In this document: positions 32,054 through 52,779 of the stretch, piece after piece | Layout: each line of letters begins with the position of its first letter | Numbering within the stretch: the first letter of the stretch is position 1 | Assembly (NCBI RefSeq): GCF_007993755.1 | Contig: NZ_CP042467.1 | Coordinates: 3,124,001-3,188,000 of the forward strand | Reading direction: 5' to 3' | DNA from: Microvenator marinus | GTDB taxonomy: Bacteria; Myxococcota_A; Bradymonadia; Bradymonadales; Bradymonadaceae | DNA: 64,000 nt | Program-made: the position numbers and the translations under genes | The notes under the pieces: generated by a model | What the model was told of the DNA's origin: nothing | Database searches by the model: none | What the model saw: only the letters and a program-made list of their open reading frames with translations

Positions 32054-32980
32054 CTACGCATATTTGGGGCTTCCTTCAAGATGGCCTGGGCGAAGCCTGT
32101 TTCTTAACTCGTTCCAGAATCGTCTCAATGTGCTGTCCGTTGGCACATCCGTTCCGGAGCCAAGCTCAAGGTTTTTTGGGGGGTTAAGTGAACCGGTTTT
32201 AAGGGGCCCAGCTGAATCTGTTTCTGGGGAGGTGATGGCCTCTTGGTTGTTAGGTCTTGCAGTGAGCAATGTTGGAACGGGATAGTGACGACCAAGTTTG
32301 TGGCGCGCGCCTTCGACATCAAAGAGCCAGTTTATCCCAGCCTCTTCCTGGTTGCGGGCTGTCTGCCATGCGGTCACCTCTTGTCTGAGTAACTCGATGG
32401 ATGGGATTCGGCGGTCAAGGCACTGCCTTGAGAGCGCACCGATCTCAATCTCGACCATGTTCAGCCAGCTGGCGTGTTTTGGTGTGTAGTGAAACTCGAG
32501 TCGGCTTGCAATGCGCCGTGCCTCTTCGGGCTCGAAGCGCTCATACAACGCAGATATGCGGTGCGTGTTCAGGTTATCGAGCACGACACGGATTCGCTTC
32601 GCCTCGGGGTAGTGCGTGTCGACAAGCGCTCGCATTTGATCTGCGAAGTCGTCCAAGGTGCGACGTTCGGTGACATCGACATTTCTCCAACAGCGATGGC
32701 GATCGAATACGACAAAGAGGTTGGCGGTACCATGGCGGCGGTATTCATAGTCGATTCGGGCGGCTTGTCCTGGTGCCGGCAGAACAGCAACACGGGTCTC
32801 TCCGATAAGCTGAATTGGCGTCTCGTCGAAGTTGACCACCGGGAACTGCGGGTCGTAGAGCATTTGGGTTTCTACGTCGACCCCTTTATGCGCCCAGAAT
32901 GGGCCAGGGAGTTCTTGAGGGTAGTCCTCGGTGCGGATGCTGCCGTCGAACCAACCTTGGAGGTGTGCAAGGAACTTCAA
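32054..32980 (-). mobile_element. IS630-family transposase remnant, N-terminally truncated
   Basis: The DDE catalytic domain is intact: first Asp in FDETPIQLIGETRVAVLPAPGQ, second in VLDNLNTHRISALYE, Glu in TPKHASWLNMVEIEIGALS, followed by RQCLDRRIPS. Missing is the ~110-residue helix-turn-helix part that full IS630 transposases (about 340-370 residues) carry before the first Asp; homology seems to begin near DVETQMLYDPQFPVV (about 32890). After GRHYPVP the last ~75 residues are non-family read-through. Terminal inverted repeats and TA duplications were not found, so it is a fossil rather than a mobile copy. Confidence 0.8.
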
Positions 32981-39110: not shown

Positions 39111-41597
39111 TTACGCAGCCTTCGCCAAGTTGGACGACGGAGTTGCTTCCACCGGTGACTGAAATCCACGCAATCGAAGCGCGTTGCCAAGTACAAAGAT
39201 ACTCGAAAGAGCCATCGCGCCGGCCGCGAAGATTGGCGACAAGAGGATTTCCCAGGTCGGATAAAGCACGCCGGCCGCGACCGGAATCAGGGCTGCGTTG
39301 TAGGCAAAGGCCCAGAACAGATTCTGGTGGATGTTGCCGATCGTCGCGCGCGACAACGCAATCGCGGTCGGCACTCCCATCAAACTTCCGGACATCAAGA
39401 CCACATCGGCCGCCTCAATAGCAATATCCGTCCCCGTTCCAACCGCCAGACCCACATCCGCTTCAGCCAGCGCGGGTGCGTCGTTGATACCGTCACCGAC
39501 AAAGGCGAGTTGTCCATACCGAGCTTTTAGTTCGCGAACCGCGTCCACCTTGTCGGCCGGCAAAACCTCGGCGATTACTTCGTCGATGCCAAGCTGGCGA
39601 GCGATGGCTTCTGCGGTGCGGCGGTTGTCGCCGGTGATCATCACGACTTTCAGTCCAAGATTGTGAAGCGCAGCGATCGCAGCCGGCGTCGTTTCTTTAA
39701 TCGGATCGGCGACCGCAACGATCGCCGCCAACTTGCCACCAATCGCAGCATAAAGCGGCGTTTTCCCTTCATTCCCAAGACGCTCGGCGCTTGCCGCGAA
39801 AACCTCCACATCGAGGCCAAGTTCGCGCATGTAGCGGTCCGCTCCGATCTCAACCAGCTCACCGTTGACGTGCGCTTTTACGCCGAAGCCCGTGATCGAA
39901 TCGAAGTCCGTGATGTCGGGAACCGAAATGACCTCGTTTTCGGCGGCCTCGACGATGGCGCGCGCGATGGGGTGCTCAGACTTTGCTTCCACCGCAGCGA
40001 TCAGGGCCAGCACGTTTTTGCGCTCGAAACCTTCGGTGATTACGAGGTCGGTCAACGTCGGGCGGCCCTCGGTCAGGGTTCCAGTCTTATCCACCGCCAC
40101 AACCTTTGCATCCTTCAGCGATTGCAGTGCCTCGCCCTTCCGAAAAAGCACGCCAAGCTCTGCACCGCGCCCGGTCCCGACCATAATCGAGGTCGGCGTC
40201 GCCAGACCCATCGCGCACGGACAGGCAATAATCAAAACAGCCACGGCATTCACAAGCGCAAACGTCAGAACCGGATCCGGACCGACGGCCAGCCAGACCA
40301 AAAACGTCAATGCCGCAACGCCCATCACAACCGGCACGAAACGCATCGTCACCTTGTCGACCAGCGCCTGGATCGGCAGCTTCGAGCCCTGCGCTTGTTC
40401 AACCATGCGGATAATCTGCGAGAGCACCGTTGCACCACCCACCGCCGTCGCGCGAAAAGACAGTGCACCTTTTTGATTAACCGTGCCCCCGACCAACTTA
40501 CTGTCCACCGTCTTTGAAACCGGAACCGGCTCGCCCGTAATCATGGATTCATCGACATAACTCTTGCCGCTTACAACATCCCCATCGACCGGAATCCGCT
40601 CACCTGGCCGAACCAGAATGACGTCACCCGCCACAACCTCCGCGATTGGAATTTCCAACTCTTTACCATCACGCTGAACCCGCGCGGTTTTTGCCTGCAA
40701 TCCAACCAGTCGCTGAATCGCCTCCGAAGTGCGGCCTTTGGCGCGAGCCTCCAGAAAACGCCCCAGCAAAATCAGTGTGACAATTACAGCAGCCGCCTCG
40801 TAATAAACGTTGACGGTGCCCGGCGGCAGCAAACTCGGCACGAACGTCGCCACCAGCGAATACGCGTAGGCGGCAAGCGTACCCACCGCGACCAGCGAGT
40901 TCATATCGGGAACAAGGCGAAACAGCGCTGGAATACCTTGTCGGTAAAAACGAAGCCCCGGCATCACCAGCACCAGCGTCGTCAACACAAACTGGATGTA
41001 CCAATTCCATTGCATGCCAATCGTGCGCATGATCAAGTCATGCACGCCCGGAATGAGGTGTGAACCCATTTCCAACGCGAAAACAGGCAGCGTGAGAACG
41101 GCTGCAATCGTCAGGTCGCGCTTGAGTTGCGTGCGTTCGGCGTCCTTGCGCTCATTCGCGGCTTCATCGTCGACGGCCGCCCCCATGTCGATCGGCCGTG
41201 CGGTATAACCGGCCTTCGCGATTGCCGCGACCAGAGCGTCGGAATCGGCGAATCCACGTACATGAGCGCGCTCGGTTGCAAGGTTTACCGTGGCTTCGAC
41301 AACTCCCGGAACCTCCTTCAACGCACGCTCGACCTGACCCACGCACGATGCGCACGTCATCCCCTCGACCGAAAGATCGATAGTAGCAGCAGGCACGCTA
41401 TAACCGGCGGCCTGGATTGTTTTGATAAGCGTCTGGCGGTCAACGGAGCTGCTCATCGTGATATCGGCCCGCTCGGTCGCCAGGTTGACGACGACTGAAT
41501 CAACGCCTTCGACCTTGCTGAGAGCCTTTTCGACCTGACCCACGCACGACGCACACGTCATTCCATCAATCCGTAATGTTTCTGTTTTCGTACTCAT
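39111..41597 (-). CDS. copA: Copper-exporting P-type ATPase CopA
   Basis: 828 residues. Two N-terminal HMA domains with GMTCASC (about 13-18 and 79-84), then eight membrane helices with the CPC motif near 458 ([13 protein letters not shown]), TGEP in the actuator, DKTGTL with the phosphorylated Asp near 502, SEHPIARAI, and [16 protein letters not shown]. The N(x)6YN and MxxSS residues for Cu(I) are seen as [12 protein letters not shown] and GAMALSSI. It exports Cu(I). The CorE-like sigma gene lies 155 bases upstream on the same strand, with a terminator between, so copA has its own promoter; TATAAT at 41618-41623 (- strand) may be its -10. Confidence 0.95.
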
Positions 41598-41694
41598 CTA
41601 TGCCCTCATTGAGGTAAATTATATCGTTAGCTTCGGCAATCGTCTCACTCATACAGACGGACGTGCCACGCCGCGGTTACACCGGAGCGCAAAA

Positions 41695-41752: not shown

Positions 41753-42298
41753 CTACGCCTGGCAGGTACAATCAACACATCCGCGCGCGGCACATTCACC
41801 GCACGTTTCTACAAGTTGTTCCTTGAGCTTTTGACGCGCACGATGGCGACGCACCTTCAGATTATTAGCTGTAATACCCAGCTCCGCAGCAACCTGCTTA
41901 GGATCCGCCTCGCCCAACTCCACCGACTCGATCATCTCCCGATACTCGTCTTTGAGCCCCGGAATCATCTCTCGAAAGCACGCACAGACGGTGGCCTTCT
42001 CCTCCGATGCATCAAAATTCGGCGCCTCAAGGGCGTACTTATCCAGGTATTTCTCCTCGGTCTGCTGACGCCGATACCGATCGATGATAGCGTTGCGCAC
42101 AAGCTGGTAAAACCACGAAACCAGCTTCTCTTCATCGTCGAGTTGCGACAGCGAACCCATCGCCTTGAGCAGACTATCATGCAGGATATCTTCGGCCGCC
42201 TGCGGGTCAGAAACCTTCGAGCGAATAAAGCCCAACAACTTGTCACGATGCGCTAGCAGTGTTGCATCGACTGTTTCGGTAGAGCCTACGTTTGACAT
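41753..42298 (-). CDS. CorE-like metal-sensing ECF sigma factor (ECF44 type)
   Basis: 181 residues. Region 2 (LLGFIRSKVSDPQAAEDILHD, LVSWFYQLVRNAIIDRYRR) and region 4 (EADPKQVAAELGITANNLKVRRHRARQKLK) are clear. Two features mark the CorE group of Myxococcus xanthus: a CxC motif between the sigma domains (C105, C107) and a C-terminal Cys-rich domain with C166, C169, C174, C177 and C179 (CGECAARGCVDCTC). In that group metal binding to these Cys switches the factor on or off without an anti-sigma factor. It lies between copZ and copA, so copper control of this island is inferred; the metal itself is not shown by sequence. Confidence 0.88.
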   Translation of the reverse strand: MSNVGSTETVDATLLAHRDKLLGFIRSKVSDPQAAEDILHDSLLKAMGSLSQLDDEEKLVSWFYQLVRNAIIDRYRRQQTEEKYLDKYALEAPNFDASEEKATVCACFREMIPGLKDEYREMIESVELGEADPKQVAAELGITANNLKVRRHRARQKLKEQLVETCGECAARGCVDCTCQA

Positions 42299-42345: not shown

Positions 42346-42600
42346 TCACTTACAACAACAGCCCGTGCGCGGCTTTTCTGCCTGCGGCTCGACCACCTCG
42401 TAGCCGGCACGACGCACGGCCTCCTCAAGCGCGGCCACATTCACGACCTCCGACAAGAAGTCGACCGTGACCTGTTTTTTCTCAAGATCAACCAAAGCTC
42501 GCTGGACACCCTCGACCGCATTAAGCGCCTCCTCGACATGTTTTACGCAATTCTTGCAGGTCATTCCTTCGACATTCAGCGTTTTCGTAGATTCATTCAT
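42346..42600 (-). CDS. copZ: Copper chaperone CopZ-like HMA protein
   Basis: 84 residues: one HMA domain with GMTCKNC (Cys15 and Cys18 region) and the GYEVVEP end, plus an unusual C-terminal GCCCK triple-Cys tail that may bind more metal. AAGGAG 6 bases before the ATG sets the start. It carries Cu(I) to CopA in the cytosol. The sigma-factor gene follows after 47 bases and is probably cotranscribed. The 160 bases upstream, before the APC gene end, hold the promoter. Confidence 0.9.
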   Translation of the reverse strand: MNESTKTLNVEGMTCKNCVKHVEEALNAVEGVQRALVDLEKKQVTVDFLSEVVNVAALEEAVRRAGYEVVEPQAEKPRTGCCCK

Positions 42601-42760
42601 GTGGTTCTCCTTACGTAGTGGTGGCGAAATAACGCCCTATTCGATTTCACCGCCACTCCCCAAAAGAGTGTGCCGGCGTGCCTTTCACAAACATAGACGG
42701 CTGTGACATTTAACGGTTACAGTTTGGAACAAAGTATTTTCGTTCGAGCACTCACTCCTC

Positions 42761-44080
42761 TTAATCCTGCTCGGCTTTGGTCCGGAGTCTTTGCAGATAA
42801 AACCGTTCGAGCGCGATGACGATACCGACCGACACCAGGCCGATCACGACGATCAGCGGATCGGAAGAGCCTTTTACGGCCAAGAATGCACCCAGAACGA
42901 TGATATCGAGAGCAATCGCCGTGCCCAAAATTACACGATTGGCACCCACATCCTTGTGCAGGTGCCGCAGAACACCCCAGTGGATGGTGATGTCCATGAG
43001 CAAATAGAAAATCGCACCCAACGACGCGATGCGCGACAGGTCAAACACTGCCGCGAAGACAGCGGCAATGACCACGGTATAGACCAGCGTGTGCTGCTGA
43101 ATGTTGCCGGGCATCCCAAAATGACTGTGCGGAATCAGCTTCATCTCGGTGAGCATCGCGAGCATGCGCGACACTGCGAAAACGCTTGCCAGAAGGCCCG
43201 AGGCCGTGGCGATCATCGCAATACCGATCGTGAACCACATTCCGTATTTACCCATGGCGGGCCGAGCAGCCTGGGCGAGCGCGTAGTCTTTTGCCGCAAT
43301 GAGTTGGTCGAGTGTCAGACTCGTCGCCACAGCAAAGCAGACGGCCAGGTACACGACCAGGCAGATCACCAACGAGATAATAATAGCGCGGCCGACGTTT
43401 TTCTTCGGCTCCGTAACCTCGTCTCCCGCGTTGGTAATGGTCGTGAACCCTTTGAACGCGAGGATTGCCAGAGCAACACCGCCGACAAAGCTTCCGAGCG
43501 AAGGCCCACCGCTTGGCGGCACGATACTTGTCTCCAGGCTGAGTCCAGAGACAACCAGAGCAATCGCTGCGAACACCAAAAGTCCGCCAATCTTGAGGAC
43601 TGCGCTGATGTTTGACACGGTCGCGATGGCCTTATTGCCGGCAAGGTTCACGATGAACGCAAACACGATAAGCCCGACAGCGAGCACCGGAACCCAAGCA
43701 CCCGCTGGATCAGATGGAAAGAGTCGGAGGGTGTACGTGCCAAAGGTTCGCGCCACCAGGCTCTCGTTGATGATCATTGAGAGCGTCATGAGCAGCGCAG
43801 CGGCCCCGGTCACCGTCGTCTTTCCGTAAGCTTTCTGGAGGATCATGGCGATACCACCCGCCGACGGATAGGCGTTGGAGACCTTGATATAGCTGTACGC
43901 ACTGAACCCACTGATGATCGCCGCGACGATGAACGCGATGGGAAACAGTCCGCCAGCAAGCTCGGCAACCTGTCCCGTCAACGCGAAGATACCAGCGCCA
44001 ATCATCACGCCGGTACCCATGGCGACCGTGCCCAACAGGCTGAGACTACCCTTTTTGTATTGCGCGGAACGATCGCTCAT
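42761..44080 (-). CDS. APC-family amino acid/amine permease
   Basis: 439 residues with about twelve membrane helices. The first helix holds the APC substrate loop GTVAMGTGVMIGAGIFALTG and helix 6-7 the conserved ALAILAFKGFTTITNAGDEVTEPKKNVGRAI. Substrate cannot be read from sequence; amino acids or amines are usual. Its place inside a metal island, between the ABC1 kinase and copZ, is unusual; a role in supplying or exporting a thiol or metal-chelating amino acid would be speculation. Confidence 0.85.
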   Translation of the reverse strand: MSDRSAQYKKGSLSLLGTVAMGTGVMIGAGIFALTGQVAELAGGLFPIAFIVAAIISGFSAYSYIKVSNAYPSAGGIAMILQKAYGKTTVTGAAALLMTLSMIINESLVARTFGTYTLRLFPSDPAGAWVPVLAVGLIVFAFIVNLAGNKAIATVSNISAVLKIGGLLVFAAIALVVSGLSLETSIVPPSGGPSLGSFVGGVALAILAFKGFTTITNAGDEVTEPKKNVGRAIIISLVICLVVYLAVCFAVATSLTLDQLIAAKDYALAQAARPAMGKYGMWFTIGIAMIATASGLLASVFAVSRMLAMLTEMKLIPHSHFGMPGNIQQHTLVYTVVIAAVFAAVFDLSRIASLGAIFYLLMDITIHWGVLRHLHKDVGANRVILGTAIALDIIVLGAFLAVKGSSDPLIVVIGLVSVGIVIALERFYLQRLRTKAEQD

Positions 44081-44192: not shown

Positions 44193-45842
44193 TCACCTTC
44201 TCAAATCGCCTCGTATGGCCGCCCATAGCCATATAAAAAGCCCCAGCAAAACCAACACTCCTCCCACTACAGAAACTTCTTGCCACATCGGCCCGACGCG
44301 CTGCCCGAGGATGTAACTTCCACCCAGCACAAGCACAGCAGGCCCGATGATCGAAGCCAGCGGACGCGTTGAAGCATGTGATTCACGCACCTCAAGCGCC
44401 TTCGAACTGGGGAGCGTTATACGCTGCTCAACCAGCTCGGCCATCGCTAACGGTAGACGCTCGAGCACCTCCCACCACATGGGCAATGAGCGCGTTACCT
44501 GTTCCCGAATGTGCTCCACGCTGAACAATTTATGTCGAAGCTGACTCAAATACGGTTCGATTTCTTCGGAAAGATCCATATCCGGATACAACGCCATTGC
44601 CGTCCCTTCGATGGTGACCAGCGCCTTGCCGAGCAAGAGTAGTTCAGCCGGAAGATTCGCGCCGTATTGCCCCCCGATCGAAAATTCTTCGTAGACCAAC
44701 TGGGCAATGCTGTACTCTTTGAGCGACGCCCCACGCCACTTGCGATAGCGCTGTTCGATCGCGCGACGATACCCCGGCACGTCCGCGTCCGGTTCAAGCG
44801 TGGCCATGCGCAACAAGAAAAAAGACGTCAGTTGCACGTCTCCACGGCTCAGCGTCCACAACATCAACGCACATCCTCGCCGAAGCTGCTCATCAAGCCG
44901 GCCGAAGATTCCAAAATCGAGCATGACCAGTCTTCCCGTCGGCGTCACACGCACGTTGCCCGGATGCGGATCGCCGTGAAAAACACCGAATTCAAGCATC
45001 TGTGCCAGCACAACTTCGACCCCGGCACGCATCAACGCTCGGCCGTCGATGTTGTGTTCAGCGAGTGCTTCGACATCGTCAATTCCTAAACTCTCGATGA
45101 AATCCATGATGATCAAATCTTGCGACGCATGGTAAATCCCGGGAATCACAACATCCAAACGCTCCGCAAACGCCTCGGCCACCTCAGCCGTCACTGCCGC
45201 CTCGTTGCGAAAATCGAGTTCTAGCAGCGTGTACCGCTTCAACTCCTCGACGATCGCAAAAGGCCGAAAAGGTCGACTCTCCCGCACATGACGCTCGAGC
45301 TGCTCAGCGAGCCAGTCCAAAATTTCAAGATCCTCGCGCACCCCTGCTTCGATTCCAGGCCGCTTGACCTTAACCGCCACAACGGTGCCGTCCTCCAGCT
45401 CCGCACGGTAGACCATCGCAAGCGAGCCTGCTCCGATGGGCTCGGACTCAAAACTTGTGAACGCATCGGCCAGCGGTTTACCGACTTCGGACTCGATCAC
45501 CGCCCGCACCTCATCGAACGGAGCGGCCGGCACCTCACTTTGCAGGCTACGTATAGCCTCTGCAAGTTCCGCAGGGATGAGATCAGAACGTACAGACAGA
45601 ATCTGGCCGATCTTGACGAACGTTGGGCCAAGCCGAATGAACGACTGCTTGACCGCCTCGGGCCACGGGCGCGACGACGATGAGCGCCCCGTCCACCGCT
45701 GCCAGGTGCAATGTGCGCGACACCGAAGCGATGCACAACTTGACACCCGCATACGCGCCATCGTTGTATAAAGCCCCTCCTCTATCAGGATCGAGACCAC
45801 CTGCCTGGTACGTCGAGTGGTTCCTCGCGGTGGACGGAACAT
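44193..45842 (-). CDS. ABC1/UbiB-type atypical kinase with C-terminal membrane anchor
   Basis: 549 residues. The KxGQ-type motif reads FVKIGQILSVRSDLIP, followed by the Ala-rich loop GAGSLAMVYRAEL, VAVKVKRPG, MDFIES, HGDPHPGNV and VMLDFGIFG, the full UbiB/ADCK set. Two membrane helices close the chain (ASIIGPAVLVLGGSYILG, VVGGVLVLLGLFIWLWAAI). Homologues help quinone synthesis or lipid handling as ATPases. The N-terminal ~45 residues (Arg/Ser-rich) look atypical, so the true start may be later. It is not near the men genes; its presence in the metal island is unexplained. Confidence 0.88.
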   Translation of the reverse strand: MFRPPRGTTRRTRQVVSILIEEGLYTTMARMRVSSCASLRCRAHCTWQRWTGRSSSSRPWPEAVKQSFIRLGPTFVKIGQILSVRSDLIPAELAEAIRSLQSEVPAAPFDEVRAVIESEVGKPLADAFTSFESEPIGAGSLAMVYRAELEDGTVVAVKVKRPGIEAGVREDLEILDWLAEQLERHVRESRPFRPFAIVEELKRYTLLELDFRNEAAVTAEVAEAFAERLDVVIPGIYHASQDLIIMDFIESLGIDDVEALAEHNIDGRALMRAGVEVVLAQMLEFGVFHGDPHPGNVRVTPTGRLVMLDFGIFGRLDEQLRRGCALMLWTLSRGDVQLTSFFLLRMATLEPDADVPGYRRAIEQRYRKWRGASLKEYSIAQLVYEEFSIGGQYGANLPAELLLLGKALVTIEGTAMALYPDMDLSEEIEPYLSQLRHKLFSVEHIREQVTRSLPMWWEVLERLPLAMAELVEQRITLPSSKALEVRESHASTRPLASIIGPAVLVLGGSYILGQRVGPMWQEVSVVGGVLVLLGLFIWLWAAIRGDLRR

Positions 45843-45913: not shown

Positions 45914-46582
45914 CTAATGCTCTGCATGCCCCGTGAGATGATCCCGAGTCTGGGTGCGTAGCGCTTCAACAGATTCCGGCTTGTTTGTCGTAAACTTCAC
46001 GGACTGCCCTTCGCCTTCAGCCTCAACAGAAATTCCTTCGAGGTACAGCGGGCACGAGTCCATCCCTTCGTATCCTTGAGTGCGAGCGAATGCGAAATGG
46101 CACTGCATGTGCTCGACGGCTGCCTCCCTCGGGACGTCGTCGTGAAACGTAATGCGCACCCCGCCATCGATGTCCTCGACTGCCTTGACCTGCCCCATCA
46201 ACGGACATGAAGCTCGTGTCGCATCGGGAAACTTCGCGCAATGCTCTTCCTTGTAATTTAAGAGGCTCTGAGCGGCTTGACGGTGTTGGTCAGCGTGACG
46301 CTGGTGCTGTTGAGCTTCGATCAAGTGACGTTCGGTGGGATTGTAAACACCGGCAAGGTAGAGTTCGGTATTGGGGTCCCCAGAAACTCGGTTGCGAGCC
46401 GTAGGGTCATGCTGCTTCTGGTGTTTATCGGCCGCCTCCTGATGCGCCCTGGCGTGCTCCTGATGTTCCGCCACGCTCATGTCATCGGGGTTGGTTCCCG
46501 GAGCCGGCGAGGCACAAGCCCCGACACCAACCAAGGCCGTGAGCATGAGTGTGAGTATCCAATTCTTATTCATTTTCGACAT
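45914..46582 (-). CDS. Lipoprotein with duplicated CP-x-G domain (island family, member 1)
   Basis: 222 residues from the ATG at 46582 (GGAG 5 bases upstream). Lipobox ALVGVGAC (Cys near 23), then a His/Gln/Ala-rich helical region with many potential metal ligands (HQEHARAHQEAADKHQKQH, HQRHADQHRQ). The C-terminal ~110 residues are two copies of one unit: SCPLMGQVKAVEDIDGGVRI... and SCPLYLEGISVEAEGEGQSV..., each about 43 residues with a leading Cys-Pro, a strand pair, FT or FH, then a helix. The same unit is in the lipoprotein at 47273-47950. No named family is known to me. Periplasmic metal binding is inferred from context. Confidence 0.7.
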   Translation of the reverse strand: MSKMNKNWILTLMLTALVGVGACASPAPGTNPDDMSVAEHQEHARAHQEAADKHQKQHDPTARNRVSGDPNTELYLAGVYNPTERHLIEAQQHQRHADQHRQAAQSLLNYKEEHCAKFPDATRASCPLMGQVKAVEDIDGGVRITFHDDVPREAAVEHMQCHFAFARTQGYEGMDSCPLYLEGISVEAEGEGQSVKFTTNKPESVEALRTQTRDHLTGHAEH

Positions 46583-46692
46583 AAAAACTCCATATATAGC
46601 GAAAGAAAGTGAAAAACGTGCGCCGCCGTCGTAAGGCAGCAATTACGCCAAAGGTCTCAGGGCGAGTAGGCCGAGCCATAACCGTGTGCAAA

Positions 46693-47046
46693 TCAGTGGT
46701 GGTGACCGTCGTGATCGTGCTCGGCCTTTCCTTCACCTTTCTGCGTGAGCATCATGCCGCAAAGCTCACACTTGCCATCGCCCTTGTCCATGCGTGCATA
46801 GTGAACGTCGCCCATGTCGCAATACCATGCGCCGTCCGGAATTTGGGATTTCTCGACCTTCGGATCAAATTTGGTGCCGTCTTTTTTGACTTCGACCGTG
46901 TCTTTAGCTGCGACCGCTTTGACTTCGGCCTTGTCTTTGGATGCGGCCTCTTGGGCTGGCTTTTCGGCGGAATTTTTCGCGCAACCAACCGTGGCGAAAC
47001 CGGCCAGCAGGCCAAAGGAGATGACGAAAATGAGGGTTCGTTTCAT
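46693..47046 (-). CDS. Lipoprotein with heavy-metal-binding domain
   Basis: 117 residues. Lipobox FATVGC (Cys at 22), Lys/Ala/Glu linker, then WYCDMGDVHYARMDKGDGKCELCGMML at about 73-99, which follows the YxCPMHP...CPxCGMxL plan of the heavy-metal-binding domain found in CusB and related proteins. A His-rich tail (EHDHDGHHH) ends the protein. It should bind Cu, Zn or similar in the periplasm. It lies between the two duplicated-domain lipoproteins, with an inverted-repeat region upstream. Confidence 0.85.
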   Translation of the reverse strand: MKRTLIFVISFGLLAGFATVGCAKNSAEKPAQEAASKDKAEVKAVAAKDTVEVKKDGTKFDPKVEKSQIPDGAWYCDMGDVHYARMDKGDGKCELCGMMLTQKGEGKAEHDHDGHHH

Positions 47047-47172
47047 GAAAACTACTCCGGGGATTAGTAAAAATCTATTGACTTAGCGTGCAGGCTATTC
47101 ACGATTCCTCATAAATAGCTCACACGCGAAGACTCAATCTGCACCAACCGTGCCAACCCGAAATAGCGCCTG

Positions 47173-47243
47173 ATTACTCACCGAACCGCTATAAAAAGGC
47201 GGACCTGTAGAGTTTTCTACAGTGAGTGTTGAATAGTACTCAC
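47173..47243. promoter_or_regulatory. Nested inverted repeats upstream of metal-binding lipoprotein
   Basis: CTGTAGA (47205-47211) and TCTACAG (47216-47222) form a 7-base-pair dyad around GTTT. Overlapping it, GTGAGT (47222-47227) and ACTCAC (47238-47243) form a second dyad, and another ACTCAC lies at 47176-47181. The region is the 226-base gap in front of the lipoprotein start at 47046. TGTAGA also occurs in the tandem repeat before merR and in the repeat before the YHS gene. Confidence 0.45.
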
Positions 47244-47272
47244 ATGCAGCCCAATTATAATAAAGAACGCGA

Positions 47273-47950
47273 CTACTCGTGCGAATGCCCCTTCGACTCG
47301 CCGCCCATCATTTGCATCATCGGACACTGCCCCTGCTCGCCCATCATCTGAGAGTGCTTTTCCATCATTTCATAGAGTTTATCGACCTGCACAGCATCCT
47401 TCGGGGTGAACATCATGCGCATACCACCGTTAATCGACACGGTCGAAACCGCGACACCCGACATCATCTGCTTCATTTCCTGATGCTTTTGTCGCTGCTC
47501 ATCAGTCATCTCCCCATGCATTTTACCGTGCATTTCACCATGCTTCATTTGGTCATGCTGACCATGCTGGCCCTGCATCATGCCGCCCTCGCTATGCATT
47601 TTCGCGTGCATCTGAGCCATTTTTTCGACACGCCGCCGAAGCTCGTCGACGTCACCGGTGGTTGTAAAATCCATCCCCACGCCGTCGTCGAGTTTCACGA
47701 CCTTTCGAGTGGTGCCTTCGACTTGCATCGGACACATCTGCGCCATCATCTGCTGATGGTCGTTGGCCTGATCAGCTCCCGCTTTCTGACCCTCAGGGTG
47801 GTGTGCAGCATGATCATCCGTCATCGAATGTTGTGTCTGTTCAACTTGTGCAGCAGGTACATTGGTTTGAGCATTATCGGCCGTGCTGCACGCGCTCGTG
47901 CCAATAAGAAAAGTCATCGAAATCAGTGTCATTAGTGTGCGAATTTTCAT
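47273..47950 (-). CDS. Met/His-rich lipoprotein with duplicated CP-x-G domain (island family, member 2)
   Basis: 225 residues from the ATG at 47950 (GAGGA 5 bases upstream; an ATG 12 bases earlier is weaker). Lipobox LIGTSAC (Cys near 21). The first unit begins MCPMQVEGTTRKVVKLDDGV and the second SGVAVSTVSINGGMRMMFTP; each is followed by a helix (DVDELRRRVEKMAQMH; VQVDKLYEMMEKHSQMM). Between them lies a Met/His/Gln-rich insert (MMQGQHGQHDQMKHGEMHGK) with many soft-metal ligands, and the C-terminus has CPMMQMMGG. A periplasmic copper or silver buffer is inferred. Related to the protein at 45914-46582. Confidence 0.75.
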   Translation of the reverse strand: MKIRTLMTLISMTFLIGTSACSTADNAQTNVPAAQVEQTQHSMTDDHAAHHPEGQKAGADQANDHQQMMAQMCPMQVEGTTRKVVKLDDGVGMDFTTTGDVDELRRRVEKMAQMHAKMHSEGGMMQGQHGQHDQMKHGEMHGKMHGEMTDEQRQKHQEMKQMMSGVAVSTVSINGGMRMMFTPKDAVQVDKLYEMMEKHSQMMGEQGQCPMMQMMGGESKGHSHE

Positions 47951-48025
47951 TATAGTCCTCATCGTGTTGCTAGATTAAACGAATACCTGGCAATGCCAGG
48001 GAAAATAGAAAAAGTGCTTAGAAAA

Positions 48026-49072
48026 TCAGTGCTTCAAGAAGCTTTGCTGTACGCCAAGCGCCTTGTCGGTGCGAGCGATCGATTCGGCACCGTCTGTAAC
48101 TGTGCCAGCTAGAGCGCGAATCGCATCGATGGTCTCGGGGATAACAATCGCCTGATTGTCGACCTGATAAGTGTAGTACGCCTGGTCGCCGTTGACGGTC
48201 AAAATGTCCTCCCAGAGCGCCACCTCCCACATATCACCGCGTGGCCGGCCAAGGTCTTTCATCAACTCGATGGTGCTGTTGAGAGCTACGACGCCCTCGT
48301 CGGCGCGGATGGTCGCGATCCGCGGTGTCTTTCGAAACACCTCAAGCACTTCTTCACGCGTGGCCTCGCGCGCCAGATCAACGATCCAGAAGTGTTGGTG
48401 CGACTGGGTATGCGACGCTTTGGCGGCGATTGTAACCACGTCTAAACCGGGAACTACTGTTTGGGCGTCGGGCCCCTGGTGACTCGGAATTTGCCTCTCC
48501 GGCACCACCGTATTCATAATGCCGCTGTGATCACTCTCCCAAGGATCGGTCGCCCGCCGAATAAGTACGCCCCGCGCGCGACGTAAAAGGCCGGCGTCAT
48601 CGAGCGCCACCAGGGTGCGCACGGTACTGGTAGTGTTGCATGAAACAACACGTGTTGCATCGAGGCCCAACGTCGACTCATAGTTGGCCTGTGCGACAAA
48701 CGAGTGGCCAGTAGCTTCGTGACTCTCACCGCCCTGGACAATCGCCTTGACGCCTCGGTCGCGATAAGTCTGGAGGTTCTTGGCACCAATGCCCTTGGGC
48801 GTGCAGTCGACGATGACGTCAACTTGGTCGAGCAGGTCGTCCAGCAGGCCGGCGACCGGGATGCCTGCCTCCTCCATCGCCTCACGTTTGTCGGCAACCG
48901 AAGCAAAGACGTGTATGTCACGCTGGATCGCCATGCCAACCCGAAAATCCGAGATGACATCACTAACCCCGACGAGCTCCATATCTGGTTGCAAGCGCAC
49001 GGCATCGGCAACACGCTTCCCGATGACGCCATAGCCATTGATACCCACAAGAATCTTGTTGTCGTTGCTCAT
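48026..49072 (-). CDS. Type II (archaeal-type) glyceraldehyde-3-phosphate dehydrogenase
   Basis: 348 residues. The N-terminal NINGYGVIGKRVADAVRLQPDM-like motif, DCTPKGIGAKNLQTY, the active-site Cys near 145 in VSCNTTSTVRTL, and HQHFWIVDLAREATREEV are diagnostic of the archaeal phosphorylating GAPDH rather than the bacterial type I enzyme. It interconverts glyceraldehyde-3-phosphate and 1,3-bisphosphoglycerate, with NAD(P). It heads the nine-gene - strand run of the metal island. Lateral transfer from archaea is inferred. A GAPDH partners ArsJ in arsenate export, but no arsJ is nearby. Confidence 0.92.
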   Translation of the reverse strand: MSNDNKILVGINGYGVIGKRVADAVRLQPDMELVGVSDVISDFRVGMAIQRDIHVFASVADKREAMEEAGIPVAGLLDDLLDQVDVIVDCTPKGIGAKNLQTYRDRGVKAIVQGGESHEATGHSFVAQANYESTLGLDATRVVSCNTTSTVRTLVALDDAGLLRRARGVLIRRATDPWESDHSGIMNTVVPERQIPSHQGPDAQTVVPGLDVVTIAAKASHTQSHQHFWIVDLAREATREEVLEVFRKTPRIATIRADEGVVALNSTIELMKDLGRPRGDMWEVALWEDILTVNGDQAYYTYQVDNQAIVIPETIDAIRALAGTVTDGAESIARTDKALGVQQSFLKH

Positions 49073-52242: not shown

Positions 52243-52779
52243 TTGGTTCGACTACATCGACAGGGATGTTGTGGCCGTGAGGTCGCACGACTCCTCGGTA
52301 TGAGTCCAAACACAGAACGCAAGTATCGTGAGGCGCTTAAGGTCGAGGGTTTACTCTTTGGCTGCAAGGAGCTTCCCGACCTTGAGACCCTGCGTTTAGC
52401 TGTGGAAAGTCAGGTGGAGCGTTCAAGCCCGCCTGAGCAATGGCGCCCTTTCCTGTTGAGCGCATCAATGCAGCCTGTGAGCGCGCACGTCTCTACGGAA
52501 ACTATACGTACCCTGGAATCCGAAACATTTTGAGAGATGGACTTGATATGGCCCCGGCCTACGAGACCCCATTCATCCACGGTCGACTCGATAATCCCCG
52601 TTTTGCGCGCAGCGTCGACGAAATCATTGGTGAGGAGGTACACGATGAGCGCCCATGACCAACTGATTCCACTACTCAAGCGGATGCGATTAAGTGGACT
52701 TTTACAAACTGCAGACCTTCGTATCGAACAGGCCGTAGAGGACCGAACTTGCGATTGGACGCAAATTGGGCCACGTTAA
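52243..52779 (+). mobile_element. IS21-family remnant (istA/istB pieces)
   Basis: Three pieces in order. 52243-52440: an IstA N-terminal helix-turn-helix (RLHRQGCCGREVARLLGMSP, then NTERKYREALKVEG). 52440-52658, in another frame: the IstA C-terminus (RINAACERARLYGNYTYPGI, ILRDGLDMAPAYETP). 52645-52779: the IstB N-terminus (MSAHDQLIPLLKRMRLSGLL), cut off after ~45 residues. The central catalytic part of IstA and most of IstB are gone, so the element is dead. Possible IS21-type terminal repeats lie 3 kb away at 55683. Confidence 0.75.

Follow-up and report, generated by a model that had tools for sequence, protein, structure and literature searches.

Organization of the locus

The window, that is the whole stretch of 64,000 nucleotides that was analyzed, encodes on its minus strand, in this order, a lipoprotein termed FAM2, a small HMBD-like lipoprotein and a lipoprotein termed FAM1 (Table 1). 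Genes for an ABC1/UbiB-like protein, an APC permease, CopZ, an ECF sigma factor and CopA are found further along the same strand. The plus strand carries a second copper-type P-type ATPase, a MerR-family regulator, a MerT/MerP-like fusion and a MerA-like flavoprotein. The initial annotation had placed here two lipoproteins with a pair of repeated units each; the open reading frames, the lipoboxes (VGAC and TSAC) and the units were all found where it had put them. Its start for FAM2, at position 47950, appears preferable to the alternative start of a longer open reading frame at 47962, because a GAGG motif lies immediately upstream. The metal site of the middle lipoprotein, on the other hand, had been misread as CPxCGM-type, the actual letters being CELCGM (C-x2-CGM). 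This protein yielded nothing against Pfam at E ≤ 1, fell below detection against the HMBD model PF19335, and is absent from the PF19335 matches listed for its own genome (G000). Relatives of it are encoded near FAM2 in genome G008, and farther away in G146.

Table 1 Features of the locus, with positions in the window
Feature	Position	Strand	Remarks
CopA-type P-type ATPase	39111..41597	minus	Two HMA CxxC motifs, N-terminal
Putative ECF promoter of copA	41655..41681	minus	TGTAAC-N16-CGTCT, upstream of copA
ECF sigma factor	41753..42298	minus	Sigma70_r2 and r4_2 (Pfam); C-terminal Cys-rich tail C-x2-C-x4-C-x2-C-x-C
CopZ-like HMA chaperone	42346..42600	minus	Pfam/NCBIfam
Putative ECF promoter of copZ	42695..42721	minus	TGTAAC-N16-CGTCT, upstream of copZ
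APC-family permease	42761..44080	minus	Pfam
ABC1/UbiB-like protein	44193..45842	minus	Pfam
FAM1 lipoprotein	45914..46582	minus	222 aa; signal peptide/lipobox, His-rich helical hairpin, β2-α-β2-α domain
FAM1 unit 2	45935..46054	minus	Residues 177–216; CPL, β, β, helix
FAM1 unit 1	46097..46207	minus	Residues 126–162; CPL, β, β, helix; invariant C161, H162 in 29/32
FAM1 helical hairpin	46238..46474	minus	Residues 37–115, predicted antiparallel; H86 in 27/30
Small HMBD-like lipoprotein	46693..47046	minus	HMBD-like WYCDMG...KCELCGM site
FAM2 lipoprotein	47273..47950	minus	225 aa, counted from the start preceded by GAGG
FAM2 unit 2	47318..47467	minus	β, β, helix, then GQCPM; invariant C213
FAM2 Met/His-rich insert	47468..47605	minus	Between the units; 37% His+Met over the 49 residues counted; background His+Cys+Met 6%
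FAM2 unit 1	47606..47734	minus	CPM, β, β, helix; invariant C77, F99

A relative of the APC permease, 69% identical, directly adjoins FAM1 in G188, and a relative of the UbiB-like gene sits between CopA and FAM1 in G251. With such relatives next to CopA and FAM1 in other families, both genes may be members of the copper cluster. A second, divergent GAPDH-like gene is found at 48026–49072 (minus strand), the standard GAPDH of the same genome being located at G000:C1:3303383. A copy that is 78% identical lies near FAM2 and FAM1 in G087; in G008, what appears to be a C-terminal remnant is present 5' of FAM2. As the GAPDH of Staphylococcus aureus is inhibited by copper (PMC6350627), this gene may encode a metal-tolerant isozyme. 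The island is flanked on one side by a DDE_3 (IS630-like) transposase gene (32054–32980, minus strand) and on the other side by short open reading frames (52243–52779, plus strand) that resemble transposase fragments by eye and have no Pfam match. The copper/mercury island may be mobile.

A repeated unit shared by FAM1 and FAM2

FAM1 and FAM2 each contain two β-β-α units of about 40 residues. Alignments were assembled from 32 FAM1 and 18 FAM2 sequences, all from the same phylum as the window. Comparison of the two whole-family alignments with hhalign gave a probability of 96.7 and an E-value of 4.4e-10. When the units were compared profile against profile, the six pairs scored between 19.6 and 39.0, each above all 60 of its column shuffles (shuffle maxima of 11.7–17.8); the similarity proposed by the initial annotation, which had named comparison with shuffled sequence as the check, is borne out for every pair. 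In a ranking of 1638 open reading frames, the first 21 non-self matches of the FAM2-unit profile were FAM1 proteins, and the first 16 matches of the FAM1-unit profile were FAM2 proteins. Judged by these profiles, a unit of about 40 residues is common to FAM1 and FAM2 with a similarity beyond chance. The optional CP[LM] motif described at the start of the unit holds for three of the four units; in FAM2 unit 2, the CPM comes after the helix.

The two window proteins matched nothing above the family cut-offs of Pfam and NCBIfam, and no recurring family appeared when the 32 FAM1 and 18 FAM2 members were scanned against Pfam. Sequence searches of the PDB with single proteins and with profiles returned nothing credible. 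The initial claim that the shared unit belongs to no named family, which was to fall with a strong match to a known domain, agrees with the lack of any such match in these three databases.

Predicted structure

The AlphaFold2 model of FAM1, calculated with these alignments, has a mean pLDDT of 92.5 and consists of a helical hairpin (residues 37–57 and 84–115) followed by a β-β-α-β-β-α arrangement. That of FAM2 has a mean pLDDT of 73, with domain blocks mostly between 88 and 98; the insert that separates helix 1 from strand 3 is of low confidence. In each protein, the unit pair is predicted to form a single globular β2-α-β2-α domain. The view of each unit as an independent module was abandoned, as the prediction packs the pair into one domain.

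Neither model had a Foldseek match in the PDB with an E-value below 0.1. With VIA-align, C-terminal domains of ArgR ranked first for FAM1 (Z of 6.7, 76 aligned residues, 2.7 Å) and one such domain was retrieved for FAM2 (Z of 5.1, 78 aligned residues, 3.7 Å), both at a level that is common among unrelated folds.

Candidate metal ligands

In FAM1, residues H40, H100, C115 and C161 are invariant in the 32 sequences, and C177 is found in each of the 31 sequences that extend far enough to include it. C161-H162 and C177 flank the α1-β3 connection, which is the site of the insert in FAM2. The cysteines of FAM1 could also form plain disulfides. The histidine pairs H40/H100, H47/H93 and H54/H86 have a constant sum of 140 and are seven residues apart, which fits an antiparallel hairpin; with random placement, such a register arises in about 2% of cases. 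This ladder is kept as a suggestion because only H40 and H100 are invariant.

The FAM2 insert contains 19–41% of His, Cys and Met in 17 of the 18 members, versus a background of 6%. In 17 of the 18, the insert ranks within the top 4% for this content, in most of them above 99%. The ligand-poor exception, L047, has 5%. The length of the insert ranges from 26 to 194 residues across members. The candidate ligands are Met and His in most members, and Cys arranged in CxC/CxxC arrays in two. The FAM2 relatives at L056:808-1839 and L043:1162-1905 have metallothionein-like inserts (with 28 and 8 Cys, respectively). The insert of the window protein, modelled with low pLDDT, contains six HxxM/MxxH motifs versus 3.2 in shuffles (p of 0.06). 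Among the FAM2 members, enrichment of these motifs over shuffled inserts reached p < 0.05 in only one. Motif enrichment as a proof of likeness to SilE was dropped, since it is not significant in most members.

Most candidate soft-metal ligands are borne by the His hairpin of FAM1, by the α1-β3 connection (C161-H162, M174 and C177 in FAM1; the insert in FAM2) and by the flanking CPM motifs. The unit itself therefore looks like a scaffold.

Distribution and gene neighbourhoods

In a survey of the phylum, FAM1 was found in 37 of 284 genomes and FAM2 in 25. A scan of GTDB contigs produced five loci, one of which (L059) comes from a metagenome-assembled genome labelled Gammaproteobacteria. The range outside the phylum rests on this single locus, whose two scanned neighbours (an HD domain protein and a universal stress protein) are encoded by non-copper genes. 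No relatives of FAM1 or FAM2 were found on plasmids.

Neighbours were counted in 31 genomes, nearly all holding FAM1 or FAM2, with P-type ATPases defined by PF00122 and HMBD proteins by PF19335, and with expectations derived from random placement; in these statistics related genomes are not independent, and PF00122 also covers non-copper pumps. Among the matches listed, a P-type ATPase is encoded within 10 kb at no fewer than 7 of the 29 FAM1 loci (0.47 expected) and at least 7 of the 16 FAM2 loci (0.30 expected). An HMBD protein is found within the same distance at 9 or more of the 29 FAM1 loci (0.24 expected), and is not clearly enriched around FAM2 (1 of 16 loci), again among the matches listed. 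Among these matches, the ATPase-linked FAM1 loci span at least seven genera, and the FAM2 loci at least five. No listed P-type ATPase or HMBD protein occurs within 10 kb at 17 of the 29 FAM1 loci and 9 of the 16 FAM2 loci, some of which are on short contigs. The f12 clade is unlinked to copper genes, with the exception of G055.

In G024 and G034, a single strand carries CopZ, ECF, CopA, a multicopper oxidase, CopB and FAM2, in this order. The oxidase (TIGR01480) and CopB (PF05275) models were run on G024, and G034 has the same layout. The order CopZ, ECF, CopA, FAM2 recurs in G014, less completely called. FAM2 is thus at the end of the CopZ-ECF-CopA cluster in these three genomes, which belong to one genus. 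In G028, CopA is directly followed by FAM1. In G087, FAM2 and FAM1 are side by side on one strand, near genes for a CopB-type ATPase and an RND system. At another locus (L067, G114:C150), three tandem FAM1 paralogues are located beside a CopA-type ATPase with an HMBD.

Homologues had been expected near cop and mer genes. The first half of this expectation stands, as they neighbour CopA/CopB ATPases, HMBD proteins, multicopper oxidase, CopB and CorE-like ECF factors; for mer, no strong neighbour was found beyond the window. The linkage of FAM1 and FAM2 is to copper systems, which is narrower than first read.

A CorE-type sigma factor and its putative promoters

The Cys-rich tail of CorE from Myxococcus xanthus senses copper and comprises Cys181, 184, 189, 192 and 194 (PMC3107203). 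Cysteines 166, 169, 174, 177 and 179 of the tail of the ECF factor have identical intervals. With its σ2 and σ4 regions and this spacing, the protein can be assigned, as far as its sequence goes, to the CorE type. Within the window, exact copies of TGTAAC-N16-CGTCT are confined to the regions preceding copZ and copA. In G014, G024 and G034, the motif is exact before copZ and has one mismatch before copA. FAM2 may share the ECF control in these three genomes, where it is encoded on the strand of copA and downstream of it. Neither FAM1 nor FAM2 has its own ECF promoter in the window, and a search for a promoter common to these two genes and that of the middle lipoprotein found none.

Proposed role of FAM1 and FAM2

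FAM1 and FAM2 probably belong to a copper-resistance system as periplasmic lipoproteins anchored in the membrane, and their shared duplicated domain would scaffold putative soft-metal ligands that buffer Cu(I)/Ag(I) for efflux. Both proteins would be exported as lipoproteins, as suggested by the lipobox. The β2-α-β2-α domain, which by the profiles and the structure prediction is a duplication of a unit of about 40 residues, would be the stable scaffold. The putative ligands of FAM2 would be provided by the disordered insert that joins helix 1 to strand 3, rich in Met and His (Cys in some relatives), and by two CPM motifs; those of FAM1 by the α1-β3 segment (C161-H162, M174 and C177) and by the helical hairpin with its invariant His pair. 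The insert and the His/Cys sites may capture periplasmic Cu(I)/Ag(I), which would be buffered until it is handed over to the Cus/Cop efflux and oxidase machinery.

It is less likely that FAM1 and FAM2 are metallochaperones or adaptors, in the manner of CusF, that pass Cu(I) specifically to a Cus-type RND pump or a multicopper oxidase rather than bulk buffers. The proximity of FAM1 to RND/HMBD genes in G028 and G055, that of FAM2 to RND genes in G008 and G087, the position of FAM2 after the oxidase and CopB genes in G024/G034, and the conservation of the CPM motifs are compatible with such a function. However, the length and chemistry of the FAM2 insert are so variable that a sponge fits better than a chaperone with a defined docking site.

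It is improbable that FAM1 and FAM2 signal to a regulator as metal sensors in the periplasm or as envelope-stress proteins, in the way of CnrX, ZraP or Spy. Such a function could be read from the His-rich hairpin of FAM1 and from the ECF factor encoded nearby, but the latter carries a cytoplasmic CorE-type Cys tail of its own, which makes a periplasmic sensor unnecessary, and Pfam gave no match to a helical family of metal resistance at E ≤ 0.1. Equally improbable is that the domain serves lipoproteins as a generic fold for structure or protein interaction, with cysteines as disulfides and a copper link due to hitch-hiking on resistance islands: a copper neighbour is missing at roughly half of the loci and the nearest fold matches are generic, but, among the matches listed, linked FAM1 loci come from seven genera and linked FAM2 loci from five, where about 0.5 at most was expected, and the inserts stay ligand-rich while their sequence changes.

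A broader proposal is about as likely as not, that FAM1 and FAM2 represent an undescribed periplasmic domain family, common in the phylum (probably Myxococcota), which offers a structured platform for interchangeable Met/His or metallothionein-like Cys metal-binding inserts and forms a buffering layer for copper and silver that differs from CusF, CopC, SilE and HMBD proteins. These lipoproteins of copper-resistance gene sets are nameless in all the databases searched. With the domain defined in its two architectures, annotators gain a profile, and many nameless genes are tied to copper handling. The shared domain is also a clean test case for folded scaffolds that host exchangeable metal-binding inserts.

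Comparison with known systems

The C-terminal domain of ArgR, of the DCoH-like fold class, has the layout of two β-β-α units (β2-α-β2-α) that is predicted for FAM1 and FAM2, with Z values in the range of common arrangements; FAM1 and FAM2 have no sequence relation to it and differ in location and context. With HMBD proteins (PF19335), which are encoded near FAM1 in many genomes, the middle lipoprotein has in common a Cys...CxxCGM site; FAM1 and FAM2, in contrast, have no such motif. CnrX/ZraP-type proteins are periplasmic helical metal proteins with His-bearing helices. FAM1 alone would share periplasmic His-bearing helices with them, but it has no Pfam match and possesses an additional C-terminal α/β domain.

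PcoE is a periplasmic metal sponge of the SilE kind. No relevant NCBIfam match to curated models of the SilE/PcoE type was obtained for FAM1 or FAM2 at E ≤ 1. SilE itself is a periplasmic metal sponge with a disordered Met/His-rich segment of HxxM/MxxH spacing that binds Ag+ (PMC5008109). FAM2 would likewise have a disordered Met/His-rich segment, with candidate motifs of HxxM/MxxH spacing, and is encoded in a putative copper/silver resistance cluster. Its segment differs in being an insert in a folded, duplicated β2-α-β2-α lipoprotein domain, with a motif count not clearly above that of shuffles. CopI is a modular copper buffer, a cupredoxin-like periplasmic protein with His-rich and His/Met-rich copper-binding segments (PMC13308877). 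FAM1 and FAM2 would similarly be folded periplasmic proteins bearing His-rich or His/Met-rich segments, but their predicted fold is different from the cupredoxin-like fold of CopI. Although outside the SilE and CopI families by the tests made, FAM1 and FAM2 resemble both in their putative role.
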